DNA of 64,000 nucleotides. It comes from Granulicella mallensis. GTDB lineage: Bacteria > Acidobacteriota > Terriglobia > Terriglobales > Acidobacteriaceae. The stretch spans positions 1 through 64,000 of the forward strand of contig NZ_JACHIO010000014.1 in NCBI RefSeq assembly GCF_014203225.1, in the 5' to 3' direction. The first letter of the stretch is position 1. Every line of letters starts with the position of its first letter. Both the position numbers and the translations under genes were made by a program. The notes under the pieces were generated by a model. It saw nothing but the letters and a program-made list of their open reading frames with translations, was not told the origin of the DNA and ran no database searches. This document shows positions 7,859 to 31,252 of the stretch, one piece after another.

Positions 7859-7949
7859 CGCACCTGTGAGCTTTTGACGCACCGATGAGCTTCTGGCGCA
7901 CCAATGCGTTTAGATCGCCCGCCCAGCGTTATGGCATGTGAAATACCAC

Positions 7950-8129
7950 GGGTACAAGCCCCAAAGGGGCGGCATATCCCAGCCCAGGGTGGAGGTATCC
8001 GCAGCGAGCGTTTTTTGCTCGCCGTGCCGCCTCCACCCTTGACGCAGAGCGCGATGCGAATGTTTGTGGCGCGCTTTGCGTCACCACCCTGGGCTGGGAT
8101 ATGCCGCCCCTTCGGGGCTTGGACCCGTG
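7950..8129. repeat. Palindromic repeat, copy A of a 104-bp direct repeat
   Basis: Bases 8026-8129 are identical to 9763-9866 (104 bases, same orientation), 1.74 kb apart on either side of the DinB-methyltransferase gene. The 3' part (CTGGGCTGGGATATGCCGCC...GGACCCGTG) is the approximate reverse complement of the start of this block near 7950-8000, so copy A is itself palindromic. No gene is supported in 7859-8133. Confidence 0.85.
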
Positions 8130-8133
8130 ACCG

Positions 8134-9573: not shown

Positions 9574-9643
9574 TCTGAAACAATCCTCAACACAAGAGTG
9601 AAGCATTCGAACACTTCCGATCAAGGCAAGTGGTAAAGGAAAT

Positions 9644-9701
9644 AGAGCCCTGAAGGGGCGACCTATTGTGGCTGCACGATAGGTCGCCCCTTCAGGGCTC
9701 T
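9644..9701. repeat. 23-bp perfect hairpin
   Basis: Bases 9644-9666 are the exact reverse complement of 9679-9701 (AGAGCCCTGAAGGGGCGACC core, 12-base loop), followed by CTCTTTTCT. It lies just upstream of the DinB-methyltransferase start on the minus strand, so it is in the 5' leader or promoter of that gene. The same core GAGCCCTGAAGGGGCGACCT recurs at 58996, so it is a dispersed element. Confidence 0.75.
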
Positions 9702-9762
9702 CTCTTTTCTGGGTCCGGTAACCCAGGGTTCCGGCGGCACGGCGAGCAAAGAACGCTCGCCA

Positions 9763-9866
9763 GCCGCCTCCACCCTTGACGCAGAGCGCGATGCGAATGT
9801 TTGTGGCGCGCTTTGCGTCACCACCCTGGGCTGGGATATGCCGCCCCTTCGGGGCTTGGACCCGTG
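9763..9866. repeat. 104-bp direct repeat, copy B
   Basis: Identical to 8026-8129 in the same orientation. The interval 9607-10056 otherwise holds only the hairpin at 9644-9701 and the der promoter; no separate gene is seen. Recombination between the copies would delete the DinB-methyltransferase gene cleanly. Confidence 0.85.
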
Positions 9867-10017
9867 GCCGCCTGGGACTCTGCGCTCCATTTTGTGTTGA
9901 TGTATCGTCCGCAAGCAGGCGGAGGATACCCTCTTCATCTTTTCTCTTTTTGCATGAAGACAGCACGTTAATCCCCGCCATAAAAACGCCATGAACGCAG
10001 AGGATGCGTATCGTTCT

Positions 10018-10023
10018 TATAAT
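10018..10023 (+). promoter_or_regulatory. -10 element of the der gene
   Basis: A perfect TATAAT lies 33 bases before the der ATG at 10057, giving a leader of roughly 27 bases that contains GGAGGA. No recognisable -35 lies 17 bases upstream. Its position inside the upstream frame extension argues against a start at 9991. Confidence 0.5.
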
Positions 10024-10056
10024 GAAGGATGCGCTGTGGCGCGGAGGACAGGCACC

Positions 10057-11952
10057 ATGGCACCGAAACGCGAACAGAAGAAAAGATTAGGCAAGAAGCA
10101 TCGGCAGGCGAGCACGCGGCCGAAGCTGGGCAAGACCGCTCCCAGGGCGACGGCAACAACCGGTGCGGTTTCACCGAAGAAGCGTAAAGAAATTGCGGCG
10201 AAGAAGGCCGCAGCCACCAAGGCCGCGAAGACGCCGACCCGCAGCCCGGAGAAAGAACGGCACGTCGTTATCAGCCCTCGCGACGCCAGTGGCGAGCAGC
10301 GTGGCCACGCGAGCGAGAGGCAGGCGCCCCCTCGCGTTCGTGCGATAAAGAAGCCGCTCGATCCCGATGCCGCGGAAAAGCGCGAATGGCGTGAGGCCGA
10401 AGCCCTGGCAACGGAACTTACGCTCGTTGCCGACAGGCATCACGAGCCCACCCGGCTGCCGCTGGTCGCGATCTGCGGCCGGCCCAACGTCGGCAAATCG
10501 ACGCTCTTCAACCGCCTCACCCAGACGCGGCGCTCCATCGTCGGCGACGAGCCGGGCATTACGCGCGACCGCATCTATGGCGAAGTCGAGTGGGCCGGGC
10601 GCGATGTGCGGCTGGTCGACACCGGTGGCGTGATCCCCGACGACGAAGCGCTCATTCCCGCCGAGATCTTCCGCCAGGCCAAAGTTGGCCTCGAAGAGGC
10701 GGACGTGATCATCATGGTCGTCGACGGACGCACCGAGCTGGCAGCACCCGACATCGAGCTGGCCCGCCTGCTGCTGCGCGGCGGCAAGCCCATCTTTCTG
10801 GCCGTCAACAAAATGGACACCCCCGAGCTGCTGGCCGGCGCCGAGAACTTTCGCCGGCTCGGCTTCAGGAACGTGGTGCCGATCTCCGCCGAACATGCCG
10901 CAGGCATCGGCGATCTGCTCGACGAGGTATGGGCGGCGCTGCCGCCAGAGTTCGTCGCCGAAGAGCCCGAAGAAGCGATGGAAGGCTTCGAGGAAGAGTT
11001 TGAAGAGGACATGGACGGCGGCGGCGATCCTCTGCCCGGCGCACAGGACTCTCCTGACGAAGAGGCCAAACCGGGCCGCAGATTGCGTTCGCACGGCGAG
11101 CACGTCTCTCGCGAGACCAAGATCGCCATCATCGGACGCCCGAACGTCGGCAAGAGCACGCTGTTGAACGCACTCACCGAGTCAGACCGCGCCATCGTCT
11201 CGCCCATCGCCGGAACGACGCGCGATGCTGTCGACGAAGTGGTTACGAGAGAAGGCCACGACTTCCGCTTCATCGACACCGCCGGCATCCGGCGCAAGGG
11301 CAAGACAAAGCTGCTGGCTGAAAAGCTCAGCGTCATCATGAGCCGCAAGCATCTCGAGGCCGCCGACGTGGCGTTGCTGGTGATCGACGCCGCCGAGGGA
11401 GTCGCCGCAGCCGACGCAAACATCGGCGGCTACGCGCACGAGAGCGGACGTAGCGTCATCATCATCGTGAACAAGTGGGATCTGATGACCGAGGTCGGCC
11501 CCGACGGCAAGCGGCTTCTCGATGGCAAGCCGCCTGCGGACCAGAAGGTCTACGAACAGCAGGTGCGGGACTCGCTGAAGTATCTCGACTACGCACCGCT
11601 GTTGTTCGTCTCGGCCTCGGAGTCCCAGGGCATCGAGCAGGTCTTCAAGAAGGTAGAGTTGGTAGCTCGCGAACGCCGCAAGCGCGTCTCGACCGGATCG
11701 ATGAACCGCTTCCTGGACAAGATCGACTTCCAGCGGGCTTCAGTTCCCATGGCGAAGCGCGTCAGGATCTATTACATGACACAGGCTGCGGTCGCGCCGC
11801 CCACGTTCGTGCTCTTCACCGATCGCGATGTGAAGCTGCACTTCAGCTACGAGCGCTTTCTCGCCAACGAGATTCGCGACACCTTCAAGTTCATCGGGTC
11901 GCCGATCTGGTTCAAGGTGAAGGCGAGGAATAAGAAGAAAAAGGAAGAGTAG
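10057..11952 (+). CDS. der: Ribosome-assembly GTPase Der (EngA)
   Basis: Tandem GTPase needed for 50S ribosome assembly. Start set at ATG 10057 because GGAGGA (10043-10048) lies eight bases upstream and a TATAAT lies at 10018; this gives 631 residues. G domain 1 begins near residue 145 with GRPNVGKS, then DTGGV and NKMD; G domain 2 has a second GRPNVGKS near 370, DTAGI and NKWD; the C-terminal KH-like domain follows. Family members are usually about 440-500 residues. The excess is a ~140-residue Lys/Arg/Ala-rich N-terminal tail and a ~50-residue Glu/Asp-rich linker between the G domains. Confidence 0.95.
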   Translation: MAPKREQKKRLGKKHRQASTRPKLGKTAPRATATTGAVSPKKRKEIAAKKAAATKAAKTPTRSPEKERHVVISPRDASGEQRGHASERQAPPRVRAIKKPLDPDAAEKREWREAEALATELTLVADRHHEPTRLPLVAICGRPNVGKSTLFNRLTQTRRSIVGDEPGITRDRIYGEVEWAGRDVRLVDTGGVIPDDEALIPAEIFRQAKVGLEEADVIIMVVDGRTELAAPDIELARLLLRGGKPIFLAVNKMDTPELLAGAENFRRLGFRNVVPISAEHAAGIGDLLDEVWAALPPEFVAEEPEEAMEGFEEEFEEDMDGGGDPLPGAQDSPDEEAKPGRRLRSHGEHVSRETKIAIIGRPNVGKSTLLNALTESDRAIVSPIAGTTRDAVDEVVTREGHDFRFIDTAGIRRKGKTKLLAEKLSVIMSRKHLEAADVALLVIDAAEGVAAADANIGGYAHESGRSVIIIVNKWDLMTEVGPDGKRLLDGKPPADQKVYEQQVRDSLKYLDYAPLLFVSASESQGIEQVFKKVELVARERRKRVSTGSMNRFLDKIDFQRASVPMAKRVRIYYMTQAAVAPPTFVLFTDRDVKLHFSYERFLANEIRDTFKFIGSPIWFKVKARNKKKKEE

Positions 11953-12010
11953 CTCTTACAGAGCTACCCCATACAGGACCTACCCAAAATCCAGAGCACG
12001 GCACCGTCTC

Positions 12011-12206
12011 AGCCCCGAAGGGGCGATATATCCCAGCCTGGGGCGCAAGCCCCAGGTACCAGGTCCCACAACGAAATCGAGGGCTGAAGGCCCGATATAT
12101 CTCGCTAATGCAGACGAGATATATCGGGCTTTCAGCCCTCGATCCTTATTTGCTTCCATACCTGGGGCTCGCGCCTCAGGCTGGGATATACCGCCCCTTC
12201 GGGGCT
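12011..12206. repeat. Nested palindrome between convergent genes
   Basis: The outer arms (AGCCCCGAAGGGGCGATATA... at 12011 and its complement ending at 12206) enclose a middle pair (CCTGGGGCGCAAGCCCCAGG and a diverged copy) and an inner perfect pair around 12076-12143 (TCGAGGGCTGAAGGCCCGAT and complement). The ~196-bp unit could fold as one long imperfect hairpin. It fills 11953-12261, between der (+) and the oxidoreductase (-) that converge here, so it may act as a two-way terminator. No gene seen in this stretch. Confidence 0.75.
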
Positions 12207-12261
12207 GGGATCGTGCTGTCTCTAACGTTCTTACGCAGACCCTTGCTTACTCGTAAGCAGC

Positions 12262-13380
12262 TTAGTTCGGCAAAGGCTGCAACGTCACGGTGCGTCCGGT
12301 CTTTGCCGACTCGCGGGCCGCGTCGAGAATCTGCACCACGATCATGTTGGTGTCGAGCGCCGAAAGATCACCATCCGGCTTGACCTCTCCGCGCAACACC
12401 GCAGCCAGGTAGTCCAGTGAGTTCTGCCGCTCCGGCGTGAGCGGGGGAGCCGTCATCGTCGACTCTTTCTGCTCGTGCGCATAGCGGACGCGCATCTCGT
12501 CGGAGGCTACCGTAATGGCATAGCCGGTCGCTCCATAGACCTCCATGTCCTTGCGGCTGAAGGGCCAGTTCCACGAAGGCATCAGCACAGCCTGCGCGCG
12601 CGGGTAACGCAAAATGATGGTCGCATCGTCATCGACCTTCGGATAGATGTCGGGCTTGTCGGTTTGCGCTACAGCGGTAACGCTGAGCGGGGCCTTGCCG
12701 TGCATCATCTGCGTCATCAGGTCCGCGCCATAGCAACCGAAATCGAACAGGGCTCCCGCGCCGTTCTGAACCGGATCGGTAAGCCACGGCAACCACTCCG
12801 GACCGACACCGATCTCCTTCGGACCAAAGTGTCCGTCATGGATGACGACCTTGCGCACGTCGCCCAGCTTGCCTGAGACTACCTCGTTATAGGCCTCCTG
12901 ATTGCTGGCGTACCAGGTCGTCTCGTAGTTCACCAGCACCTGCACGTGGTGCTCGGCCGCAGTCTTGCGAATGGCGAGCGCATCGGCCACCGTGGTGGCG
13001 AGCGGCTTCTCTACCATCGAACTGACGCCGTGCCGCGCCGCGAGCTCGATCACCTTGCGATGGTCGAGGATCGTCGTGTACACCAGCACGGCCTGCGGAT
13101 GTACGGCGTTGAGCATGGCTTCGGTATCGGTATAGAAGAGGGCGTGGTTCAGGTGAAACTCTTTTTCGTACCGGGCTGCAACGGCGGTGTTGGGTTCGGC
13201 GATGCCCACGAGCTGAACGTTCTTATCCGTGGACAGCGGACCAAACAAGCCCTGCGCATGACCATGCACCAGGCCGACGATGGCAACTCGCACAGGAGCG
13301 GCCTGTGCGTGAACTGCCTGGGAGAGGAAGGTTGTTCCAAAGACGAGGAGTGCGCTACGGACGAACGAGGAGAGCTTCAC
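12262..13380 (-). CDS. Exported Gfo/Idh/MocA-family oxidoreductase
   Basis: 372 residues. An N-terminal Sec-type signal peptide (MKLSSFVRSALLVFG...AVHAQ) precedes a Rossmann fold starting VRVAIVGLVHGHAQ; the usual GxGxxG is degenerate (GLVHGH). The EKP signature of the family (VEKPLATTV) lies near residue 122 and the C-terminal alpha/beta domain carries GAGALFDFGCYGADL. Relatives oxidise or epimerise sugars with NAD(P). A cleavable signal is unusual for a cofactor-dependent enzyme but is common in acidobacterial Gfo/Idh paralogs. It faces the brnT locus divergently; substrate unknown. Confidence 0.85.
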   Translation of the reverse strand: MKLSSFVRSALLVFGTTFLSQAVHAQAAPVRVAIVGLVHGHAQGLFGPLSTDKNVQLVGIAEPNTAVAARYEKEFHLNHALFYTDTEAMLNAVHPQAVLVYTTILDHRKVIELAARHGVSSMVEKPLATTVADALAIRKTAAEHHVQVLVNYETTWYASNQEAYNEVVSGKLGDVRKVVIHDGHFGPKEIGVGPEWLPWLTDPVQNGAGALFDFGCYGADLMTQMMHGKAPLSVTAVAQTDKPDIYPKVDDDATIILRYPRAQAVLMPSWNWPFSRKDMEVYGATGYAITVASDEMRVRYAHEQKESTMTAPPLTPERQNSLDYLAAVLRGEVKPDGDLSALDTNMIVVQILDAARESAKTGRTVTLQPLPN

Positions 13381-13457
13381 GGCGTTTCCTTTGTACAGCG
13401 AAATTATTTCTATCTTAGAACCGTTCGCAAATCTGCCGTACTATCTGGAGTTGAAAG

Positions 13458-13746
13458 ATGAAACCTCCCAGGCAGATATTCGAGTTCGACGCGGCCAAAG
13501 CGGCCAGCAACCTGAAGAAGCATGGTGTTTCATTTGCAGAAGCAATGACGGTCTTCGACGATGCGCTCTCCTCCACGCTTCCAGATGATCAAACACTCGA
13601 ACGACGAACTCCGCTTCATCACGGTTGGAATGTCTTCGCGGCAACGTCTGCTTTTTGTCGTTTACACTGACACTGTCTCCAGCATCCGTATCATCGGGGC
13701 TCGTCTTGCCACTGCAACGGAGAGAAAACAGTATGAAGAAACGTGA
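13458..13746 (+). pseudogene. brnT: BrnT-family toxin, frameshifted
   Basis: BrnT toxins are small ribonucleases. The first frame gives MKPPRQIFEFDAAKAASNLK...GVSFAEAMTVFDDAL, a typical BrnT N-terminus; it then runs out of family. The next frame continues with the BrnT C-terminal half: HSNDELRFITVGMSSRQR...RIIGARLATATERKQYEE, stopping at 13746. Removing one A from the AAA run at 13591-13593 restores a continuous ~95-residue protein (DDQ|HSNDE). SD GGAG seven bases before the ATG. The downstream antitoxin overlaps the end by 14 bases. Either a real pseudogene or a homopolymer sequencing error. Confidence 0.8.
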
Positions 13747-13984
13747 GCTCGATCCCCTCGCTCCTCGGCCGGCCCTGGATTTCAGCAAGGGCGTTCGCGG
13801 GAAACACCATGCCCGCATGCAGCAGGGAACGAATGTCGTTCTTATCGCTCCAGATCTCCTTGAAACTTTTCCAGACTCCGAAGCCGTCAATGAGGCGCTC
13901 CGCAGCCTGAAGAAGATAGCGGAACGAACTACGAAACCAGCTTCTCGCTCTACCCCTAAAAGATCTACAGCCCTGGCCAGCTAA
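13733..13984 (+). CDS. Antitoxin partner of BrnT
   Basis: 83 residues, ATG at 13733 with GGAGAG eight bases upstream, overlapping the end of the BrnT reading frame. The sequence (MKKRELDPLAPRPALDFSKG, VRGKHHARMQQGTNVVLI, FPDSEAVNEALRSL) matches the small proteins that follow brnT genes: a basic linker, a TNVVL beta strand and a ribbon-helix-helix-like SEAVNEALRSL helix. It should bind and neutralise the toxin and repress the operon. Intact although the toxin is broken. The family assignment is from gene context plus pattern. Confidence 0.7.
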   Translation: MKKRELDPLAPRPALDFSKGVRGKHHARMQQGTNVVLIAPDLLETFPDSEAVNEALRSLKKIAERTTKPASRSTPKRSTALAS

Positions 13985-13989
13985 AACAG

Positions 13990-14271
13990 CTAATACCGAT
14001 CTACCACCTGGCGGTGCCGCTGCAACCACCAGCACGCCCCACTGCCTGCCTGCGGAAACAGCGAGTAGCTGCAATCCACGACGTTGACGTCTCCCAGGTA
14101 GTACTCCTCTTTGTTGTTCTTCATCTCAGCCGCAACGACGCTGATCACCTGCACCTTACCCATTCCATTGCCGTGGGAGACGCGCAGCTTCCAGACCGCC
14201 CAGTCGACGGGATACGACAAGGCCGCGATGATCAGCAGCCCCGCAAGCGTTCTGAGCAAAATCCGTTTCAT
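13990..14271 (-). CDS. Small membrane-anchored protein of unknown function
   Basis: 93 residues from ATG 14271 (a GTG at 14280 would add three). One N-terminal hydrophobic helix (ILLRTLAGLLIIAALSYPVDW) followed by a ~65-residue soluble tail with two Cys (VDCSYSLF, GACWWLQ). The first segment could be an uncleaved anchor or signal. Gene converges with the antitoxin; only five bases separate the stops. The YYLGDVNVVDCSYSLFPQ region looks conserved-protein-like, but I do not recognise the family. Confidence 0.6.
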   Translation of the reverse strand: MKRILLRTLAGLLIIAALSYPVDWAVWKLRVSHGNGMGKVQVISVVAAEMKNNKEEYYLGDVNVVDCSYSLFPQAGSGACWWLQRHRQVVDRY

Positions 14272-14380
14272 GTGAGCCACGCCCTATTATGCAGGCAGGC
14301 GATGGTAGAAAGACGCCAGGCCCTCATTACAAGTCTCAGCATCAGCATCAGCTTTGTCGCTACGCATGGCCCACCACAAT

Positions 14381-15259
14381 CTACAGATTGAACAGCTCCC
14401 GCAGCCGCTTGGTCTGCGAGCGGCTCACCGGGATCTCGGTCTGCTTGCGGTCGTCCATGCGGAGCTGATACGACGATTTGAACCACGGCACGACCTCGCG
14501 GATGTGCTGAATGTTCACCACGAACGACCGGTGCGCGCGCCAGAACTGCTCCTGGTCAAGCTGATCCATCAACTCTTCGAGCGTCCTGCAGTTCGAATCG
14601 CCCTCTACCGTTTTGGTCACCACCGAGATTCTGCCGTCCTCGATCGCAGCGAAACACACGTCCTTCTGATCGGCGAGCAGCAGGCGGTTCTGTGCCCGCA
14701 CCACCACCTTGCCCGACTTCGCCAGATTGTGCGCTCCCTGCGTGGAGAGTCCCGAAGCCTGCGCTGCCTGCTCTTCCACCATGCGCAGCAGGGCATCCAG
14801 CTTGGCCGCGGCATCCGAGCCAAACTCGGCCCCGTTGCCTCCCTGGGAAACCACTGCCTCACTGCTCGGCCCATCGGATGCCAGGCGCGCACGCACCTTC
14901 TCCAGTGTCTTCACCACGCGTTTGGCGTCAAACGGCTTCAGCAGGTAGTCGACGGCGTTCACCTCGAACGCCTTGACCGCGTACTGGTCGAACGCCGTCG
15001 CAAAGACGACCTGCGGCATATGGAACTTGCGGTCGAGCGCCAGCACCTTCTTGAGCACCGCAAAGCCGTCGAGCCCCGGCATGCGGACATCGAGGAAGAT
15101 CACATCGGGCTTATGCGTCCGGATAAGGCTCACGGCTTCGATGCCGTTGCTTCCCTGGGCCAGCACCGAGACCTCGCCCGCGGCCTCCAGCAGATATTGC
15201 AGCTCCTGCCGGGCCAGCGGTTCGTCGTCGATGATCAGGGCGGTGAGCGGATTTGCCAT
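14381..15259 (-). CDS. LytTR-family response regulator
   Basis: 292 residues. Receiver domain 1-125: acidic pair D11/D12, phosphoacceptor D57 in IFLDVRMPG, switch Thr in FATAFDQ, and Lys in LLKPF. A 50-residue Ser/Ala/Gly linker follows, then a LytTR DNA-binding domain at about 185-292 (VRAQNRLLLADQKDV, CRTLEELMDQL, FWRAHRSFVVN, IPVSRSQTKRLREL). It should be phosphorylated by a sensor kinase and bind direct-repeat promoter sites. No histidine kinase gene is adjacent, so the partner lies elsewhere. Confidence 0.9.
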   Translation of the reverse strand: MANPLTALIIDDEPLARQELQYLLEAAGEVSVLAQGSNGIEAVSLIRTHKPDVIFLDVRMPGLDGFAVLKKVLALDRKFHMPQVVFATAFDQYAVKAFEVNAVDYLLKPFDAKRVVKTLEKVRARLASDGPSSEAVVSQGGNGAEFGSDAAAKLDALLRMVEEQAAQASGLSTQGAHNLAKSGKVVVRAQNRLLLADQKDVCFAAIEDGRISVVTKTVEGDSNCRTLEELMDQLDQEQFWRAHRSFVVNIQHIREVVPWFKSSYQLRMDDRKQTEIPVSRSQTKRLRELFNL

Positions 15260-15354
15260 TACGGCATTCTAGTCTTTAGACCAGAGATCTTTGTTGTTGC
15301 TTGTTATCAGGGTGAGTCATTGAACCTCGTTCGAGGTTTCGCCAGATCTCTTGC

Positions 15355-15567
15355 TTTGAAGGGGCGGGGCTTCAGCCCCGCCGTTGGGACAACCACTAAA
15401 GCGGCTTCAGCCGCGGAGGGAACGGTGTCTATTCAGCCAGTCACTCTGTCCCTTGAAATAGCTTCGGCCTGCAGATCGCAGATTTGCTCCGGAATCATTC
15501 CCTCAGTGGCTAAAGCCACTGCACGCAGCAAGCTCTAACGGCGGGGCTGAAGCCCCGCCCCTTCAAA
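15355..15567. repeat. 31-bp perfect inverted repeat, composite palindrome
   Basis: Bases 15355-15385 are the exact reverse complement of 15537-15567; each arm is itself a hairpin (GGCGGGGCT-TC-AGCCCCGCC). Between them lie smaller palindromes (GCGGCTTCAGCCGC; AGTGGCTAAAGCCACT). The stretch 15260-15630 holds no gene and separates two minus-strand genes. Such units recur through the window and resemble REP-like elements without a visible transposase. Confidence 0.8.
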
Positions 15568-15630
15568 ACAAAAACTTGAACTCTAACCTCACCCCTGCCC
15601 ATGGCTTAAGCCTGCGAGGTTGACTGTTGA

Positions 15631-16170
15631 CTAGTCGCTATACGACCGCAACCGCGCCGGAACGGAATCCTCGGCCAGGTCGTGTCCGCACTGCGTGCAG
15701 TAGACATCGGTGATCTTCACTCCGCGATGGCACAGCCCGCACACCGGGGCCATCTGGAACTGGCACTGCGGGCAGAAGTGATAGCTGCCCTCCATCGCCG
15801 TGGCACAGTTCGGGCAACGCGACAGGATCGGCTGCCGCAGCATGAAGTACACCACCGAGCCAATGCCGCCGGGCAGAACCACGCACACCAGCATCCACAG
15901 GCCCGCGGACATGCCACGGCGCTTGACGTCGCGGCTCACATAGCCGAGCAGCAGGGCATAGCTGGCGACCAGCGCACCCCACCAGTAACCCGCCATCAGG
16001 CGCATCGGCAGAAGCTCATGCTTGTGGTGCGGCATGACCTCGTGGAAGATGTACTGCATCCCCACAAACAGGGCGATGGCCAGCACCATCGACCAGCGTG
16101 GGATCATCATCAGTTCCTGATCCCCGCTCGAGGAGGAGTCGCCCTGCTGTGATGTCGCCCACTGGGTCAT
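15631..16170 (-). CDS. Membrane protein with C-terminal double zinc ribbon
   Basis: 179 residues. Hydrophobic helices at about 28-45, 60-80 and 90-110, then two treble-clef/zinc-ribbon units: CPNC...CPQC and CGLC...CTQCG, eight cysteines in CxxC pairs. This is a cytosolic zinc-binding tail on a membrane protein. It is last in a three-gene operon behind an ECF sigma factor; the start overlaps the previous stop by four bases. A role in the sigma circuit (membrane sensor or effector) is inferred from the operon only. Confidence 0.75.
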   Translation of the reverse strand: MTQWATSQQGDSSSSGDQELMMIPRWSMVLAIALFVGMQYIFHEVMPHHKHELLPMRLMAGYWWGALVASYALLLGYVSRDVKRRGMSAGLWMLVCVVLPGGIGSVVYFMLRQPILSRCPNCATAMEGSYHFCPQCQFQMAPVCGLCHRGVKITDVYCTQCGHDLAEDSVPARLRSYSD

Positions 16171-16538
16171 CGTGTTACCTCACTATTGGACTGCCCGCGG
16201 TCACGCTGAAACCATGCCAGGCCCAGCAGCACGGCCGTTACCGGCAGCGACCACAACAGTAGCAGGAACAACTGATCGCTCGCATCGGGAACACCATTCG
16301 GAGCCAGCTCGTCGTAGCCCTCGAGTACAGCCCATACGGCATAGCAGAGCCCCATCAGCAGCATCGAGAAGATGCCCAGCGGAACCCACAGGCTGCGCGA
16401 ACGCTGCTTCTGCTCCCGCATGACCAGCGCCTGCTCGCGCACCACGCGATGCGTGCGGTTTACCACCGAAGCGCGGGCCGTAAAGTTCATGGGCCCTGTC
16501 TGCCTCGTTACGTCTTTGAAATCCTGAGGAGCGCTCAC
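16167..16538 (-). CDS. Membrane protein in sigma-factor operon
   Basis: 123 residues. The N-terminal 50 residues are basic and probably cytoplasmic (RTHRVVREQALVMREQKQRS), followed by two transmembrane helices (about 52-72 and 90-108) and a short tail. It overlaps both neighbours by four bases, so the three genes are translationally coupled. Its position right after the ECF sigma gene is where an anti-sigma factor usually sits, but no zinc-binding HxxxCxxC anti-sigma motif is visible. I do not recognise the family. Confidence 0.7.
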   Translation of the reverse strand: MSAPQDFKDVTRQTGPMNFTARASVVNRTHRVVREQALVMREQKQRSRSLWVPLGIFSMLLMGLCYAVWAVLEGYDELAPNGVPDASDQLFLLLLWSLPVTAVLLGLAWFQRDRGQSNSEVTR

Positions 16539-23327: not shown

Positions 23328-23631
23328 TTGGTTACAAAGTTTTTCCGGATGATCGCGGCGATTCATCGCAGACGCCCACCAAAGAGCGTCGTAACCGTCT
23401 TGTGCGGCCCGACTTTCTCTTCCGACCCATTAAACTGCTGAATAGACTTCTCTACGGCCTGCTCCCGCATCCAAGCAGGAATGCCTGTCAGCAAATCCAC
23501 GCCTTTGTTTGCGATAATGACTAAGACAATAAGAGTTGCTGTGTAAGCACCAGCGGCTCCCTCGCCTGCCTGTGTAACTTCGCCCTTGCGGCATTTTGGC
23601 CTTATCCCACTCCCCATGCAGGACCTTATAT

Positions 23632-25011
23632 ATGCAGCTATGGACCGACTATGAAGGCGTCACGATAGACGGCGTTTTCCCCTTGAAAAAACTGCTGATG
23701 CCCGAGGGCCGCAGCGCGTTCTACACCACCGCCGGGCTCACCGGCGAGCCAACCGTGCTGCGCCTCATCGAGTGCCACTTCGATGAGGAGGAGATTCTTG
23801 CCCGTTGGCGTTGCGTGGAGGCGTTGAACCATCCAAACTTCCTCAAGTTCGAGCGCTTCGGCCAGACCGAGCTCGATGGCCGCCCGGTCGTCTATGCCGT
23901 CCTGGAGAAGGTGGACACGAATCTTGCCGAGGTCCTTGACCAGGGCCACCTGACGGTCGAGGATGTGGCGCAGCTGGCATCCAGTCTGGTGGCAGCGCTC
24001 GATGTGCTGCACACCCATGGCTTTATTCACGAGCACATCAAGCCGCGCAATATCTTTGCCTTGAGCAACGTAGTCAAATTGCGCAGCGACTGCATCCGCG
24101 AAGCGCCGGAGGGAGAGGAAGGCCGCATCGCGAAGCAGCGCGACGTGCGCGATCTCGCAACCGTGCTCCTCCAGGCACTGACTCAACGGAAATCCGTCGA
24201 GGGCATTCCCGATTCCGCCCTGCCTCCGCCGTTCGGCCAGATCATCCGCAACGGACTCGATGGCACATGGGGGCTGGAGAACATAAAGACCGCTCTCGAA
24301 CACCAGTTTGGTTCGAATCAACCTGCAGCCCAGCCTACAGCCCCAAAATCGGAGAATGCGGTTCCGGCAACGACAGCCGTAGCCGAGCAGAAGGCTCCAG
24401 GGACTGCGGGTGCTGCCGCCAAGCAGTCCGTGCGGCCCGAGGCACAGCTCCCCCTCCCTCTCCTCAAGGAGGACCGGGATGCGGGATCTGCCCGCGCAAC
24501 CGCCCGCAAAGATACCTGGGACCCCAAAGCTACCCAGAACGACGGTCAGAGCCTCTCGCTGGGCTCCCGTCGGCTTGGTGCCGGCATTGTTGCTATTCTC
24601 CTGCTTCTTTCCTTATGGGGACTTGCGCACCATCGGAACAAAGCCCAGCAGGCTGCTGTCGTTTCACAACCAGCCGCGCAATCAGTGGAACAGACCGTAG
24701 CCAGCCCTGCTCCTAAGCCCGTCACGGCGGATTTGCCGCCCGCGAGCCTCCCCGCATCAGCTGGCTCTCGCGCCGACTGGCGCGTGATCACCTTCACCTA
24801 CAACCGCAGGACAGACGCGGAAAAGAAGGTTTCCGACCTGGCACATAGCCATCCTGAACTGGAGCCGGAGGTCTTTACCCCCAGCGGGCATGCTCCATTC
24901 CTGGTTTCCATCGGCAAGAGCATGGACCGGGACGCCGCCTACGCCCTTGCCCGCCACTCTCGTTCCCTGGGGCTACCGCGCGACACGTACGCGCAGAATT
25001 ACAGCCGTTAA
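23632..25011 (+). CDS. Pseudokinase-like domain, transmembrane helix and SPOR domain
   Basis: 459 residues from ATG 23632 (AGGA eight bases upstream). Residues 1-225 follow the serine/threonine kinase fold (LEKVDTNLAEVLDQGHLTVE, VAALDVLHTHGFIHEHIKPRN), but the catalytic HRDxKPxN reads HEHIKPRN (133-140), so the catalytic Asp is His, and the VAxK Lys appears as Arg in VLRLIE. A ~90-residue Ala/Pro/Gln linker leads to one TM helix (about 315-332), a second linker, and a C-terminal SPOR domain (380-455: WRVITFTYNRRTDAEKKVSDL, HAPFLVSIGKSMDRDAAYAL). SPOR domains bind denuded septal peptidoglycan, so it probably links a cytosolic pseudokinase to the division site. Confidence 0.75.
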   Translation: MQLWTDYEGVTIDGVFPLKKLLMPEGRSAFYTTAGLTGEPTVLRLIECHFDEEEILARWRCVEALNHPNFLKFERFGQTELDGRPVVYAVLEKVDTNLAEVLDQGHLTVEDVAQLASSLVAALDVLHTHGFIHEHIKPRNIFALSNVVKLRSDCIREAPEGEEGRIAKQRDVRDLATVLLQALTQRKSVEGIPDSALPPPFGQIIRNGLDGTWGLENIKTALEHQFGSNQPAAQPTAPKSENAVPATTAVAEQKAPGTAGAAAKQSVRPEAQLPLPLLKEDRDAGSARATARKDTWDPKATQNDGQSLSLGSRRLGAGIVAILLLLSLWGLAHHRNKAQQAAVVSQPAAQSVEQTVASPAPKPVTADLPPASLPASAGSRADWRVITFTYNRRTDAEKKVSDLAHSHPELEPEVFTPSGHAPFLVSIGKSMDRDAAYALARHSRSLGLPRDTYAQNYSR

Positions 25012-25226: not shown

Positions 25227-28061
25227 TTAGTGTGGCGTTGGGGTCATGGGAGGAGTTGAAGACTTTTTTGCGGGCGACTTCGCTACAGTTTCTGGCGATA
25301 TATTGGGTACCATCGGCTGTTCGTTTGCATTTGTCTCTGTGGCAGTCTGAGCCACACTGTCCCAGGTGCCGGGCTGCCTGCCGTCGAGCCACTTCAACAC
25401 ATCTTCGTAATTGGGTCCGCTTTCTCCATCGGAGGCCGAGCGCTTGATCTCGTTGCGCTGCCGCGGAGTCAGAGACCAGTTCAAAGGATCGGTTCCGGTG
25501 CTGTTACTTCGTTCATCCGCGATGACGACATGGTGGAGCTGGAGCCGGTTACCGTATGCCTGTCGCAACACCTCCAGCGAAGCGCGATTGCGCGAGGTGA
25601 CGCTCTCGTGTCCTGCCTCCCAGAGGCCTTGGAGCGGTGCCGTCAGCTGCGTCAGCAGATCTCCCGTGCCAGTCTGACTTTGTGGGACGGGCTGGAACGA
25701 GCGAAAGGTCTTGACCGACTCGGCAGGATCATAAGCATCGTTCCTGATTTCGATCAGCACGACACGAACGCGTTTTCCGGGTAAGCCTGGCGTGCCTTGC
25801 CAGCGCTTCTTCAAGGCTGCCAAGGCAGCATAATTGCCCTTGTCTTCTGTTTTGCCTGATCCCTGCTCAGGGTCGTCCAGTGCGTAGCGCAGGAACTCCA
25901 GCACCGAAGCTGTGCCGTCGTTGTCGTAATACCCGCCATCGATGAAGTGCGTCGCATTGCGACCGTAGACATCCGGGAAACGGGCAGCGGAGGAGACGTA
26001 AGGGAAGGTCGCGGATAGCTGTGCCGCGGTTGGTAGCGGCAGATCCGGGTAACGCGGATCGTCTTCGCTTCCAAGATCGGTGTCTCCGTAGACCTGAAGG
26101 AAAGACTCCGCGGGCAGGGCCTCCTTCTCTCCGATCGCGTAACGAGGAAGCTGATAGTTGGCGAGCAGAAAACGGTCTCCGTATTCAGCCGTGGTCGTAT
26201 TCATCGTGAAGGCTGGAAAGAGCTGCCTTGTGAAGCCCATGCCGCTCAGGTTCAGCGCTTTGTTCTCGTTTTTTTCATTGTCTGCATCCCGGGTGATGAA
26301 ATCGAGTGTGATCCATTTGGAAACTGGGTGACTCCAATCAACGGCTTTGTCGTTCCAGGTGCTGACGCAGTAATCATCGGTCAAATTGCGGCTGAATCCC
26401 CTCCGGAGGGCCCAGGTCCGATCCTTTCCCATCGGGGAGCTCAGCAGATCGTCGACTCCTGTTGCGGAGGCGGTGGCCAGAGGGATGGGGAAGAAGGCAG
26501 CCACAGGCAGATCATGGTAAATCAGCCCCCAACTGATGGCCTCCAGGCTGGAGCAGGATGCGCTGATAGGGATCGAGGAGAAGTCACGACGGGAGCGTCG
26601 GAGTTGGTCCACGTAACTCATGAAGCCTGTGCTGCCGCCGGAGACTGTACTCGCCAGCAGCATGTGTTCATACAGGTGTTGCCCAGGCCACTGCTTGGAC
26701 ACGTGCCATTCAAGCTGGGCGAGAACGGATGCGGTCCATGCAGAGGCATGCAGACCGCCGCCTGTAGCCGTGACGATGATGAGTGGCTGATCAAGATCTC
26801 CTTCCGGTCCATACCAGTCGTCAAGGATCTCAGCCGGTGTTTTTTGCAGTGTTTTCTTAGACGTGAGGCTGACCGAAAGGTAGTGCTCTTCGCGTCCCTG
26901 TTCTACGTGCAGCCACCGCTCTACATTGCGCGGAAGAATGACAAACACCACAAAGAGGGTTGTCACGGGTACACGATAGCGATCGAGAAAGAAAGCCAGG
27001 CCGTCCAACAACCAGAAAAAGACGAGTACCGCAATCGTAATAGAGGCGAGGGCGGGGAAACGCTCTGCATCCGTGATGACATACAGGAGCGGAAAAACCA
27101 GCGTGTACAGACCAATGACAATGGCGGCACCTCGGAGGACAAACTTCGACGTCGCGTCTGTTGCGCCGCTCTGCAGGAGTAGCGCGATGACTGTGCCTCC
27201 CATCAGAAAGATGAGTGCCACACCTGCCCATGCCCATCGTGTAGGAACAGGTGCCGTCATCGGCCAGAGGGCGAGATAGATGAAGAAGAATCCGATCGCG
27301 GCCAGCACAGAGAAGAACGTTCCTTCGTAGAGGTTGTTTCCGCCCGGCTGCACATATCCTGGCAATTGCAATCTTGTGACGAACGAACGAAACCCCACGG
27401 CAAGCCTGGCCTCTCGCCGTAATATCTTTGGAACCGCCGACCCTGCTGTCTCGACGGTATCCAGGTCTACGTCGCTGCTTGGAGACGGCAACAGAAACCA
27501 GGAACGCGGCATCAAGATCGTCCGAGCTGCGTTCTTACCCAGAATGACCTTGCCCCGTGACGTGTTGGCCGCCGCGTCATAGATGTACAGGATGTAATAG
27601 AGCAGGTTTAACGGCCACCAAAAGATGAAAGCCAGTACAGTTCCGATCGCTAGACCGAGACATATCTGCCGGCCGTCCACCGATTCACTCGTTCCAAAAT
27701 TGAACAGGTAGATGAATCCAAAGAGCGACGGAAATGTAGCCAAGACGATGGCCCAGTGCTCATTTCGGCCCCGGTTGTTGCGTAGCAAACTGATGATCCA
27801 ACTGGGCGGACCGTCATCATTGAAGCGCTCGGCACCGTTGATTGCGATCACGCGCATGCCAATCAATGCAACAAAGCCCGTACAGATCAGAAAAAAACCG
27901 ATACAGACGTATTGAGGGATTGTCTCGGCTACCATCAGCCCGCTGCTCAGGCTCTTCAACCCCGTCGAATTTATGGCAGCCATGATCATCGGAAACAGCC
28001 AAAGCAGAAGGCTGAATCTTGAAAAGTAGAGATATCGTAACGCGCGAGACAGACCCTTCAT
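25227..28061 (-). CDS. Multi-TM patatin-like phospholipase/hydrolase
   Basis: 944 residues from ATG 28061 (GGGAG upstream). The N-terminal ~380 residues contain about eight hydrophobic helices (near 15-32, 50-72, 103-122, 135-160, 250-270, 278-298, 310-330, 338-358). The C-terminal half is patatin-like: oxyanion loop GGG at 434-436, nucleophile elbow GGSTG at 475-479 (Ser477), and the Asp of DGG at 708-710 (HFIDGGYYDNDGT). These form the Ser-Asp dyad of patatin lipases that cleave acyl esters. The last 60 residues are Pro/Ser/Thr-rich. Monocistronic. The large membrane domain is uncommon for patatins; the substrate may be a membrane lipid. Confidence 0.82.
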   Translation of the reverse strand: MKGLSRALRYLYFSRFSLLLWLFPMIMAAINSTGLKSLSSGLMVAETIPQYVCIGFFLICTGFVALIGMRVIAINGAERFNDDGPPSWIISLLRNNRGRNEHWAIVLATFPSLFGFIYLFNFGTSESVDGRQICLGLAIGTVLAFIFWWPLNLLYYILYIYDAAANTSRGKVILGKNAARTILMPRSWFLLPSPSSDVDLDTVETAGSAVPKILRREARLAVGFRSFVTRLQLPGYVQPGGNNLYEGTFFSVLAAIGFFFIYLALWPMTAPVPTRWAWAGVALIFLMGGTVIALLLQSGATDATSKFVLRGAAIVIGLYTLVFPLLYVITDAERFPALASITIAVLVFFWLLDGLAFFLDRYRVPVTTLFVVFVILPRNVERWLHVEQGREEHYLSVSLTSKKTLQKTPAEILDDWYGPEGDLDQPLIIVTATGGGLHASAWTASVLAQLEWHVSKQWPGQHLYEHMLLASTVSGGSTGFMSYVDQLRRSRRDFSSIPISASCSSLEAISWGLIYHDLPVAAFFPIPLATASATGVDDLLSSPMGKDRTWALRRGFSRNLTDDYCVSTWNDKAVDWSHPVSKWITLDFITRDADNEKNENKALNLSGMGFTRQLFPAFTMNTTTAEYGDRFLLANYQLPRYAIGEKEALPAESFLQVYGDTDLGSEDDPRYPDLPLPTAAQLSATFPYVSSAARFPDVYGRNATHFIDGGYYDNDGTASVLEFLRYALDDPEQGSGKTEDKGNYAALAALKKRWQGTPGLPGKRVRVVLIEIRNDAYDPAESVKTFRSFQPVPQSQTGTGDLLTQLTAPLQGLWEAGHESVTSRNRASLEVLRQAYGNRLQLHHVVIADERSNSTGTDPLNWSLTPRQRNEIKRSASDGESGPNYEDVLKWLDGRQPGTWDSVAQTATETNANEQPMVPNISPETVAKSPAKKSSTPPMTPTPH

Positions 28062-28275
28062 ATGAAAGACTCCCGGAGAAATTCTCTGTGTGGGGGCCCT
28101 AATAAGTATTGCGTCAGATGTAGCTGGAAAGGATGCGGTCATCCTACAGCAAGGTATTGAGTACGGCAACTGGATTTGTTATACGGAGCTATCGACCGGC
28201 CCCGCTTCGGCTCTCATTGGCGTTCCCGACGTCCGCTAAGCCCAACTTTCTCCCTCAACCCGGTAAACTACTTGG

Positions 28276-29079
28276 ATGGACGTTCTCTACGGCCTGCACC
28301 CGGTGGAAGAGGCCATTCGCGCGGGCATGCGGCAACTTGACCATGTAAGCGTCGCCCGCGAGCGAGAGGCCCGCCGCGATGCCCGTCTGGACGCGGTTCT
28401 TGACCTCTGCCGGGCCGCAGGCATCCGCGTCAACACCGAGTCACGCGACCAGCTCACACGCCACGCCAAGACCGACGCCCACCAGGGCATCGTCGCCTTC
28501 CTGCGGGAGCGCAAGTTTCTCGCGCTCGAAGACCTGCTGAACGCACCCCCCGGGCCGACCGGCTTCCGGTTCTTTCTCGCACTCGATGGCGTCGAGGACC
28601 CGCACAACCTCGGCGCGCTGCTGCGCTCCGCGGATGGTTCCGGGATCGACGGCGTCATCGTGCCGGAGCGGCGATCCGCGCCCTTGAGCGCGACGGTCGC
28701 CAAGAGCTCTGCAGGGGCCTCCGAACACGTGCGCATCGCGCAGGTCGTCAACATTACGCGCGCCCTGGAGACGATGAAGAAGCACAACGTCTGGATCGTC
28801 GGCCTCGACGAGCGCGGAACCCCCGACTACACCGACTTCGACTTTCGCCAGGACTGCTGCCTCGTTCTGGGCAGCGAGGGCTCGGGCCTGCACGAGCTGG
28901 TAAAGCGCACCTGCGACCACCTGCTGCGCATCCCGATGGCGGGCAGCGTCTCGTCGTTAAACGTGTCCGTAGCCGGCGCGGTCGTCATGTACGAGGCGAT
29001 GCGTCAGCGCCGCTCCGGTGCGGTTCAGACCCCGGCTGCGTCCAAAACACAGAAGCCTCGTAAAGGTTTGGGATCGTGA
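28276..29079 (+). CDS. rlmB: 23S rRNA (guanosine-2'-O-)-methyltransferase RlmB
   Basis: 267-residue SpoU/TrmH-family SPOUT methyltransferase. N-terminal substrate-binding domain 1-75 (DVLYGLHPVEEAIRAG, DAHQGIVAFL). Catalytic knot: motif 1 LALDGVEDPHNLGALLRSAD, motif 2 CLVLGSEGSGL, motif 3 IPMAGSVSSLNVSVAGAVVMYE. It would methylate a conserved guanosine in 23S rRNA (G2251 in E. coli numbering) using SAM. The C-terminal 25 residues are a basic tail. The M1-like gene starts 13 bases downstream, so the two are co-transcribed. Confidence 0.92.
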   Translation: MDVLYGLHPVEEAIRAGMRQLDHVSVAREREARRDARLDAVLDLCRAAGIRVNTESRDQLTRHAKTDAHQGIVAFLRERKFLALEDLLNAPPGPTGFRFFLALDGVEDPHNLGALLRSADGSGIDGVIVPERRSAPLSATVAKSSAGASEHVRIAQVVNITRALETMKKHNVWIVGLDERGTPDYTDFDFRQDCCLVLGSEGSGLHELVKRTCDHLLRIPMAGSVSSLNVSVAGAVVMYEAMRQRRSGAVQTPAASKTQKPRKGLGS

Positions 29080-29092
29080 GGAGTCATTGACT

Positions 29093-31252
29093 TTGAGTTT
29101 GAAACGACTGCCACGCGCTTTGGCGGCGACGCTTGCGCTGGCTGGTCTGGGCCTTGCCGGCACCACCTACGCGCAAACAACCACCCCTGCACCACCGCCC
29201 GCCACGCAGGCCACTCCGGATCAGCCCGCTCCCCCCAAGGGTGAGGTCCTCTTCCAGAGCCACGGCACTCCCCCCGATGCGACGCCTGAATCCGAGGCCA
29301 ACGGGCGCACGGTTCTCGCCAAGCCCGAGGAGAAGCCTTCCGGGCCGGAGCTGACCGACCTCGAACGCTCGGCCATTACCTTTACAGCCTACGATCTCGA
29401 CGCGCGCCTCACTCCCGCCAGCTCGTCGCTGACCGTTCGCGCAGGCCTCACACTGCGTAACGACGGCGACAAGCCGCTGACGCGCCTCGCGCTCCAGATC
29501 TCCTCGACGCTCAACTGGCTGGGCGCTACGCTGATCTCGAACACCGGTACCCAGAAGCTTGAACTGGCACAGCATCTGATCGACACCGACGCCGATCACA
29601 CCGGCAAAGCGCAGGAGGTGATTATCACCCTGCCTGCTCCGCTCGCCCCCGGCAAATCGATCACCTTGAACACGGTCTATTCCGGAACGGTCGAGGCCAG
29701 CGGCGGCCGCCTGGAGCGCATCGGCGCGACGCACGAGCAGGCACTCTCCACCGATTGGGACGCCATCTCCACCACGACCATCGCGTTGCGCGGCTTCGGC
29801 AATGTGCTCTGGTATCCCGTCGCCTCGCCCCAGCTCTTTCTCGGCGACGGTGCGCAGCTCTTCAACGCCGTCGGCCGCATGAAGCTGCGGGAATCGGCCG
29901 CAACGATCCATCTGCGGCTGTCCGTCGAGTACACCGGCGAGCCACCGGTTGCAGCCTACTTCTGCGGACGCCGCCAGGCCTTCCATGCCTTGAGCGACAG
30001 CGCCGATACTCCTACTGCTGCAGGTACGGGCATTGCAACGGCGGACTTTGCCGCTGAACCCCTGGGCTTCCGCATGCCCAGCCTGTTCCAGGTCGCGCAT
30101 GCGGAGACGATGACCGCTTCGCTGACAGAGCCCTCCGATTCACCAGCGGCTCCTGCAACGACGCCCGATGCCGACTCCAGCTCGTCCTCCAGTTCCTCTT
30201 CAAGCTCGTCATCGAGCTCATCATCGAATTCCGCCGGGGCTCCTGCCCCGGCAAGTTCCAATGCCATTGCTGCGAGCCACGGCCCAGGCGACTCGCTGCT
30301 CGCGGTCGAGAGTAACGACGACGGCTCGCTGCCGCCGCTTGCTGCCTCGGCACAGCACATCGCTCCGCTGCTGGAAGAGTGGTTCGGACCGAAGCCGCTG
30401 TCGTCCCTGACGATTCTCGATAACCCCGGGCAGCCGTTCGAGGATGGCCCGCTGCTGGTCGCTCCCATCTCCGCGCTGGCCGCTTCAACGGCCTCTCCGG
30501 CGCTGGCACATAGCCTTACCCACGCGTGGGTGCAGACCGGCCAGCCGTGGATGGATGAGGGCCTGGCACAGTTTTTCAGCCTGTTGTGGATCGAGCACGA
30601 GCAGGGCCGCGATGCCGCCATCGCACAACTGACCACCCTGATGCAGCCGGTGTCGATCGCCGAACCAGGCATCGAGCCCAACGAGCCCGCTCCGGTGGGC
30701 GAGCCGCTGGTCTCGGCAACCTCAGAACTCTACTTCCGCCGCAAGGCCGCAGCGGTCTGGTGGATGCTGCGCGGCATCGTCGGCGACAAGCCGCTGCAGG
30801 CCGCGCTGCAAGCGTGGCGCACACGCACTCCGGGGAACACGACGCCCGAGCAGGACGTGCGCGCCTTCGAGGCGCTGCTGGAGAAGACACCGAAAGGCCC
30901 GATCGACCTGCGCTGGTTCTTCGACGACTGGGTGCTGCATGATCGCGGCCTGCCCGATCTCGCGATCACCGACGTAACACCGCGGTTGCTGCCGGCAGGC
31001 CAGGGCCACAGTGCGGGCTGGCTGGTGGCAGTCACCATACATAACGATGGCGCTGCCGGTGTCCAAATCCCTATCACGATCCGCTCCGGGACCTACAGTA
31101 CGACCTCTCAAGTGCGGGTGGCGGGATTTGCCGATGCAACAGCGCGCGTCCTGGTGGAAGCTCCTCCTACCGAGGTCTGGGTGAACGACGGCAGCACGCC
31201 CGAACTACGCACCTCGCTGCACCGGCGCGACGTTGTCGTCCACGCTCAATAG
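29093..31252 (+). CDS. Exported M1-peptidase-like protein with degenerate zinc site
   Basis: 719 residues if started at TTG 29093, nine bases after GAGGAG; TTG 29087 would leave only three bases. Signal peptide 1-27 (ALAATLALAGLGLAGTTYAQ). Residues about 90-270 are the M1-type N-terminal beta domain (AYDLDARLTPASSSLTVRA). A run of 17 serines follows near residue 365. The gluzincin site reads HSLTH (473-477) in place of HExxH, so the catalytic Glu is Ser, while the later zinc-ligand Glu is kept (MDEGLAQFF, E489). It is therefore probably not an active aminopeptidase. The C-terminus (WFFDDWVLHDRGLPDL...) matches M1-like proteins. Confidence 0.8.
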   Translation: MSLKRLPRALAATLALAGLGLAGTTYAQTTTPAPPPATQATPDQPAPPKGEVLFQSHGTPPDATPESEANGRTVLAKPEEKPSGPELTDLERSAITFTAYDLDARLTPASSSLTVRAGLTLRNDGDKPLTRLALQISSTLNWLGATLISNTGTQKLELAQHLIDTDADHTGKAQEVIITLPAPLAPGKSITLNTVYSGTVEASGGRLERIGATHEQALSTDWDAISTTTIALRGFGNVLWYPVASPQLFLGDGAQLFNAVGRMKLRESAATIHLRLSVEYTGEPPVAAYFCGRRQAFHALSDSADTPTAAGTGIATADFAAEPLGFRMPSLFQVAHAETMTASLTEPSDSPAAPATTPDADSSSSSSSSSSSSSSSSSNSAGAPAPASSNAIAASHGPGDSLLAVESNDDGSLPPLAASAQHIAPLLEEWFGPKPLSSLTILDNPGQPFEDGPLLVAPISALAASTASPALAHSLTHAWVQTGQPWMDEGLAQFFSLLWIEHEQGRDAAIAQLTTLMQPVSIAEPGIEPNEPAPVGEPLVSATSELYFRRKAAAVWWMLRGIVGDKPLQAALQAWRTRTPGNTTPEQDVRAFEALLEKTPKGPIDLRWFFDDWVLHDRGLPDLAITDVTPRLLPAGQGHSAGWLVAVTIHNDGAAGVQIPITIRSGTYSTTSQVRVAGFADATARVLVEAPPTEVWVNDGSTPELRTSLHRRDVVVHAQ

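Follow-up and report, generated by a model that had tools for sequence, protein, structure and literature searches.

Positions 23632 to 25011 (plus strand) of the DNA analysed here, a 64,000-nucleotide stretch of Granulicella mallensis contig NZ_JACHIO010000014.1 referred to below as the window, are occupied by an uninterrupted open reading frame (ORF) with a product of 459 amino acids. Met1 at 23632 is kept in all 12 aligned members of the family; the ORF lister had instead set the start at a TTG at 23596. The protein consists, in this order, of a kinase fold, a linker, a transmembrane (TM) helix, a second linker and a SPOR fold, and its features are as follows.

23632..25011, plus strand: whole gene, 459 residues, pseudokinase-TM-SPOR (open frame, translation, conserved Met1)
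23653..24315, plus strand: pseudokinase domain, residues 8-228 (Pfam Pkinase, AlphaFold2, VIA-align)
23761..23763, plus strand: Arg44 in place of the ATP-binding β3 Lys
24028..24051, plus strand: HEHIKPRN (residues 133-140) in place of HRDxKPxN
24085..24093, plus strand: SDC (residues 152-154) in place of DFG, with Asp153 in the Phe position (alignment)
24316..24573, plus strand: disordered, predicted cytosolic linker, residues 229-314 (pLDDT below 50 for 229-316; dN)
24574..24630, plus strand: TM helix, residues 315-333 (AlphaFold2 helix; hydropathy)
24631..24774, plus strand: disordered Ala/Pro-rich linker, predicted periplasmic, residues 334-381 (pLDDT below 50 for 333-379)
24775..25008, plus strand: SPOR domain, residues 382-459 (Pfam in relatives, SPOR-only model, VIA-align)
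24787..24789, plus strand: Ile386, where SPOR domains have a glycan-contacting Gln

An initial annotation had described this gene as a pseudokinase joined through a TM helix to a SPOR domain, which is confirmed here, and the arrangement is that of a family and not a single oddity. An AlphaFold2 (AF2) model of the 459-residue protein, built on 12 aligned sequences, has a mean pLDDT of 64; the kinase C-lobe and the C-terminal domain (383-456) are modelled with confidence, the N-lobe is poor and there are disordered stretches between. Pfam, scanned with the window protein at E≤10, returns Pkinase and the related PK_Tyr_Ser-Thr and no other match, and comparison with PHROGs yields a single weak kinase model and nothing more. 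The single TM helix placed by the annotation between kinase and SPOR is recovered as a hydrophobic AF2 helix at residues 315-333.

Family members were gathered from 42 first loci, further searches and fetched stretches, giving 127 distinct sequences above the score floor, which were typed with hidden Markov models built from the family itself. These comprise 95 sequences of the SPOR type (the window copy included), 24 of a TonB type and 8 of neither; the 95:24 ratio is not a census, full-length and high-scoring matches having been fetched first. Four of the 8 (L008, L013, L176, L178) possess a kinase part and no in-frame SPOR match, and all four likewise lack the HRD Asp. The others (L029, L031, L032, L098) were excluded as other kinases, L031 and L032 being used as the outgroup. 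A segment of Kyte-Doolittle hydropathy of at least 1.6 lies between the two domains in 92 of 95 SPOR-type sequences and in all 23 TonB-type sequences tested; at least one SPOR-type sequence also has an N-terminal stretch with a hydropathy of 1.83. In 69 of the 95 SPOR-type sequences the kinase side of the TM segment has more Lys and Arg than the other side, in 8 it has fewer and in 18 the numbers are equal, the window protein (2 vs 2) being among the ties, and on this pattern the kinase part is predicted to be cytosolic and the SPOR part periplasmic.

The SPOR-type loci that carry genome handles all lie within the family of the window's organism, and those with names are Granulicella, Acidobacteriaceae or 'Acidobacteria' records. 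A SPOR-type profile finds matches at E≤1e-10 in 235 of 398 genomes of that family, a count that takes in TonB-type genes. Most of the examined genomes with two to four matches hold one gene in two pieces, and one (G389) holds two SPOR-type genes; each of 27 listed genomes has one family match, and none has both types at that threshold. Within the genus, 11 of the 28 genomes have the gene, the window's own included. The profile search did not find it in the other 17, of which 10 are at least 90% complete, including a one-contig assembly (G007), and its apparent absence there suggests that the gene is not essential to the genus.

The pseudokinase-SPOR gene is under purifying selection: in comparisons with four orthologs, dN/dS over the whole gene is 0.25-0.34. 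By part, it is 0.06-0.25 for SPOR, 0.20-0.31 for the kinase domain and up to 0.60 for the linkers, SPOR having the lowest value in three of the four comparisons, and the dN of residues 229-309 exceeds that of the kinase domain in all four.

The C-terminal SPOR fold and its possible ligand

The assignment of the C-terminus to SPOR in the initial annotation stands, as the domain is modelled as a SPOR fold and Pfam SPOR matches 11 of the 12 aligned members (best E 1e-6). The exception is the window copy, which by itself has no Pfam SPOR (PF05036) match even at E≤10, a consequence of its divergence. Modelled alone, the domain reaches a pLDDT of 89 and has the order strand-helix-strand-strand-helix-strand, and both Foldseek and VIA-align place it with the RNP-like SPOR fold. 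The best Foldseek match is the SPOR domain of Bacillus subtilis CwlC (1x60), whose E of 0.009 is modest, and no match reaches E≤0.001. In VIA-align the first rank goes to 6ozd (Z 9.2), an exported protein that carries no SPOR label, and ranks 2 to 6 are solved SPOR domains, namely CwlC (1x60) at 9.1, RlpA at 7.7 (6i05) and 7.5, DedD at 7.5 and DamX at 5.4, where a Z below 8 may by itself reflect merely a common arrangement. Further ranks have a Z of 4.8 and lower, among them the FtsN SPOR domain (rank 9, Z 4.4). At the sequence level the resemblance is weak: hhalign of the family against six reference SPOR domains, from which the residue alignment is taken, gives a probability of 26 and E 7e-4, and hmmsearch of a SPOR profile against PDB sequences finds no SPOR chain and only a chance match to Titin (E 0.41).

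SPOR domains contact glycan through a so-called highly conserved Gln (RlpA Q270, FtsN Q251, DamX Q351), and in the RlpA-glycan complex a further patch is formed by R302, R309 and R311 (PMC6895207). The Gln is retained in all six reference domains, which are those of E. coli FtsN, DamX, DedD and RlpA and of two other SPOR proteins from the window's genome. At the equivalent position of the SPOR-type family (386, aligned to FtsN) there is Val in 56 and Ile in 39 of the 95 sequences and never Gln. Position 424, which corresponds to FtsN R285, is Leu in 77, Phe in 12 and other residues in the rest, with Arg in none; since this Arg is found in just three of the six references, the Gln is the telling difference. 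Other residues of the sheet are retained: position 384 is Arg or His in 91 of 95 sequences, Thr389 is kept in 94, and aromatic residues stand at 388 in 94 and at 390 in all 95.

These residues bear on one reading of the protein, which follows the initial annotation in targeting SPOR to the septum: the domain would bind denuded peptidoglycan there, and the protein would report from, or recruit to, the division site. The C-terminal SPOR fold and its low dN/dS point that way, as do the retained sheet residues and the involvement of all known SPOR proteins in division or morphogenesis, as put in the introduction of PMC6895207. Against it, the key Gln is replaced in every SPOR-type sequence, so that canonical recognition of denuded glycan is unsupported by the residue that matters most; Arg never occurs where FtsN has R285, though half of the references lack that Arg as well; the search of the 28 genus genomes left 17 without a match; and no division gene was recognised among ten neighbouring genes scanned with Pfam. 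We regard septal binding as possible and rather doubtful. From the aligned residues, a variant mode of glycan binding or a protein ligand would be just as likely, and the SPOR fold by itself should not be taken as septal glycan binding.

The ten scanned neighbours comprise four in the window and six in one other locus (L046), and open frames around 30 loci were also clustered, by which no operon partner was found. Those of the window encode a membrane protein resembling DUF308 (24 bits, cut-off 25), a patatin-like protein, an rRNA methylase of the RlmB type and a product without a match. They are not common to close relatives, and one 246-residue ORF falls into a cluster with frames from two distant loci. 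The patatin-like protein (25227-28169, minus strand) is a membrane protein of 980 residues in which the motifs TGGG, GGSTG and DGG were recognised by eye and Pfam finds nothing at E≤0.001. At 29018-31252 (plus strand) an ORF of 744 residues with a long serine run, likewise without a Pfam match at E≤0.001, adjoins the rRNA methylase gene. In one subclade (L046 at 6947-16172, L047, L048, L057 and L058) the gene is next to or between genes for glycine dehydrogenase subunits, which belong to a glycine-cleavage cluster and are encoded on the other strand. Neighbourhoods thus vary among the relatives, and no functional clue was obtained from them.

A kinase fold that has lost its three catalytic residues

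Pfam Pkinase matches residues 54-150 of the window protein with 35.7 bits against a cut-off of 31.7, and structural comparison by Foldseek and VIA-align groups the N-terminal part with protein kinases (in VIA-align, Mnk1 at Z 18.7 and Mycobacterium tuberculosis PknB, 1o6y, at 17.9). Blocks of the AF2 model from residue 91 to 230 have a pLDDT of 75-95, and residues 1-49 are mostly below 50.

A kinase fold without catalytic competence, with His for the catalytic Asp in HEHIKPRN and Arg for the ATP-binding Lys, had been proposed in the initial annotation, and both replacements are seen, at His135 and Arg44. The position of the β3 Lys is Arg in 76 of the 95 SPOR-type sequences, Ser in 18 and Gly in 1, and never Lys. 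The position of the HRD Asp is His in 76, Arg in 10, Gln in 5, Glu in 2, Leu in 1 and Lys in 1, so that no SPOR-type ortholog with an intact HRDxKPxN is found (0 of 95). A third loss, beyond those in the annotation, affects the DFG Asp (Ser152 in the window protein), which is Ser in 87, Gly in 5 and Thr, Ile or Cys in one each. In addition the SPOR-type kinase part is without a Gly-rich loop and has a shortened activation segment. The protein thereby falls under the definition of a bacterial pseudokinase as a kinase fold missing one or more of three catalytic residues (PMC12599244), and an active Hanks-type Ser/Thr kinase is rejected on the absence of the β3 Lys, HRD Asp and DFG Asp from all 95.

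The conservation that was expected of HEHIKPRN holds in part: HEH is the norm, but the Lys at position 137 occurs in just 2 of 95 sequences, where 64 have Glu, which rules out the motif as a conserved octamer. Residue 153, which is Asp in all 95 SPOR-type sequences and in 23 of the 24 TonB-type ones, was considered as a remaining DFG Asp; in the canonical kinases aligned with them DFG lies at 152-154, which makes 153 the Phe position, although the placement of the one-residue gap is not beyond doubt.

Six other proteins with Pkinase matches in the same genome were used as a control. All six keep the Asp of the HxD motif (L200 reads HCDLTPAN), the search patterns for the β3 Lys matched only two, and DFG was seen in five (four by pattern and L200 by eye) and not in L201. 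With the Lys and DFG patterns incomplete among these kinases, the control supports the loss of the catalytic Asp only.

Glu25-Gly26-Arg27, Arg44 and Asp153 are invariant in a 15-row alignment (A5), and this could mean that a pocket has been repurposed. Hence the kinase-fold domain may be considered as a site of non-canonical catalysis or as a nucleotide-binding sensor, a reading to which the near-universal Asp153 and the frequent Arg44 (76 of 95) also contribute. Pseudokinases with new chemistry, such as SidJ and SelO, are precedents, and ActPs2 may bind ATP with Arg in place of Lys (PMC12599244). The low pLDDT of the N-lobe leaves room for an unusual nucleotide pocket. Still, with no Gly-rich loop, Lys, HRD Asp or DFG Asp and with a short activation segment, such activity is judged improbable.

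Relatives with a TonB_C domain

In the sister group (L017-L028, L165-L174), likewise from Acidobacteriota, a pseudokinase is followed by a TM segment and a TonB_C domain. TonB_C is detected in all three of the sister proteins scanned, with NCBIfam tonB_Cterm above its cut-off in L017 and L020, and the window protein has no TonB_C match in Pfam at E≤10. Among the 24 TonB-type sequences the position of the HRD Asp is occupied by His (12), Arg (11) or Gly (1), the DFG Asp is kept in none and the β3 Lys in 21; their kinase part mostly has a GGS loop and mostly a longer activation segment than in the SPOR type. The TonB type extends to other families of the same class (G079, G086), where the fetched SPOR-type sequences do not occur.

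Two trees were built. The first comprised 52 SPOR-type rows (thinned from the 95), the 24 TonB-type sequences and two canonical kinases; all SPOR-type sequences fall on one branch (SH-aLRT 99), and the C-terminal type changes once. The second comprised 27 of the 95 SPOR-type and 21 of the 24 TonB-type sequences with six other kinases, four of them from the window's genome. Here, the SPOR and TonB types together are separated from the other kinases (99), the SPOR sequences again form one group (99), and the TonB sequences are left unresolved (support 0). Both trees thus give the SPOR form a single origin, and it probably derives from a pseudokinase-TM-TonB_C protein whose periplasmic domain was exchanged. 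The simplest order of events would be that the HRD Asp and DFG Asp were lost first, followed by the Gly-rich loop, the β3 Lys and a portion of the activation segment on the branch where SPOR replaced TonB_C.

SPOR and TonB_C are different folds. This speaks against a TonB-like function at the outer membrane, in which the two domains would be alternative grips on the outer envelope; that the sister proteins carry TonB_C at the same end, and that none of the 27 listed genomes shows both types at the threshold used, would fit such a function, which nevertheless seems unlikely.

Two copies have a disrupted frame between the kinase and SPOR parts. In G006 (L013, 1501-2887) the assembly has just 5 contigs, and the break may therefore be a real recent loss; in G013 (L008/L039) the locus lies on a fragmentary assembly. 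A decaying pseudogene or chance fusion, for which one could cite these two breaks and the kinase parts of L176 and L178 without a same-frame SPOR match, is largely refuted by purifying selection and by the same architecture in 95 distinct sequences, and we give it almost no weight.

A candidate scaffold and its known counterparts

Somewhat favoured over the other readings taken together is a single-pass inner-membrane, receptor-like, non-catalytic scaffold that links a ligand in the envelope with a partner in the cytosol. Here, the cytosolic kinase-fold domain would not phosphorylate in the usual manner and would serve as a binding platform for the partner; the TM helix and the two disordered linkers would join it to the periplasmic SPOR fold, which would bind a component of the envelope; and binding outside would fix or cluster the protein at a site in the envelope and thereby position or modulate the partner inside. 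The scaffold reading follows above all from the complete loss of Lys, HRD Asp and DFG Asp in the 95 sequences, set against an HxD Asp in six of six same-genome kinases. It also draws on the two folds, the TM segment with its positive-inside bias, the dN/dS values, the single SPOR clade, the separation of the family from six other kinases and the TonB_C sisters, and on the analogy with EssB/YukC, a transmembrane pseudokinase that acts in scaffolding and recruitment (PMC12599244). It is weakened by the poorly modelled N-lobe and its invariant residues, which may point to an unusual nucleotide pocket, by the Lys/Arg bias, which is reversed in 8 and tied in 18 of the 95 sequences, the window's among the latter, and by the hydrophobic N-terminal stretch of at least one SPOR-type sequence.

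A broader and distinctly speculative extension is that dead receptor kinases of the Acidobacteriota signal across the inner membrane purely by binding and have an exchangeable periplasmic sensor, TonB_C being the older one and SPOR, without the canonical Gln, a derived one that would read another envelope ligand. Kinase remnant and sensor would then have changed together, the Lys being lost on the branch where SPOR replaced TonB_C.

Bacterial pseudokinases are largely unexplored by experiment, and the available text of a review of their families has no occurrence of 'spor', 'tonb' or 'acidobacteri' (PMC12599244). In the open-access literature searched, no description of the pseudokinase-TM-SPOR architecture was found, and none of Acidobacteriota pseudokinase-TM-TonB_C proteins in the literature searched; the available part of one paper (PMC3989709) pairs a pseudokinase with a SPOR domain only through its reference list. 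Among characterised systems, EssB resembles the window protein in that its kinase fold has a shortened activation loop and degraded versions of all three motifs, and ActPs2 in having Arg for Lys and a C-terminal TM segment, but ActPs2 has Asn for the HRD Asp where the window protein has His. EssB/YukC, MviN (ActPs3) and ActPs2 occur in other phyla, and EssB/YukC and MviN are dead kinases with other partners (PMC12599244). The YARHG-domain kinases, as described in the available part of PMC3355149, share an N-terminal kinase, a TM segment and a C-terminal domain proposed to bind peptidoglycan, but comprise six sequences, are hypothesised to phosphorylate targets and carry another outer domain.

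The closest model in NCBIfam by score is PknB_PASTA_kin (NF033483), with 37.2 bits against a cut-off of 450. PASTA-type PknB and Stk1 have an N-terminal Hanks kinase fold, one TM segment and a C-terminal extracytoplasmic cell-wall module, and the window protein follows the same plan from kinase to outer module. They are live kinases with PASTA repeats, however, whereas the window protein has lost its catalytic residues and has SPOR instead, with no PASTA repeat in its Pfam scan. FtsN, DamX and DedD are organised as a cytosolic part, a TM segment, a linker and a SPOR domain. The SPOR fold is common to these proteins, RlpA, CwlC and the window protein, in which the cytosolic part is a pseudokinase and the glycan-contacting Gln is gone. 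The TonB_C sister proteins share a homologous pseudokinase without the HRD Asp and DFG Asp, and a TM segment, and differ in mostly keeping the Lys (21 of 24), in their mostly present GGS loop and longer activation segment and in their TonB_C end. The window protein would work like the PASTA kinases and EssB/YukC or MviN but belongs to none of them by the features tested. What this broad soil-bacterial family adds to them is an apparent order of catalytic-residue loss together with a natural domain exchange, which makes the role of a dead receptor kinase testable through swaps of the outer domain.
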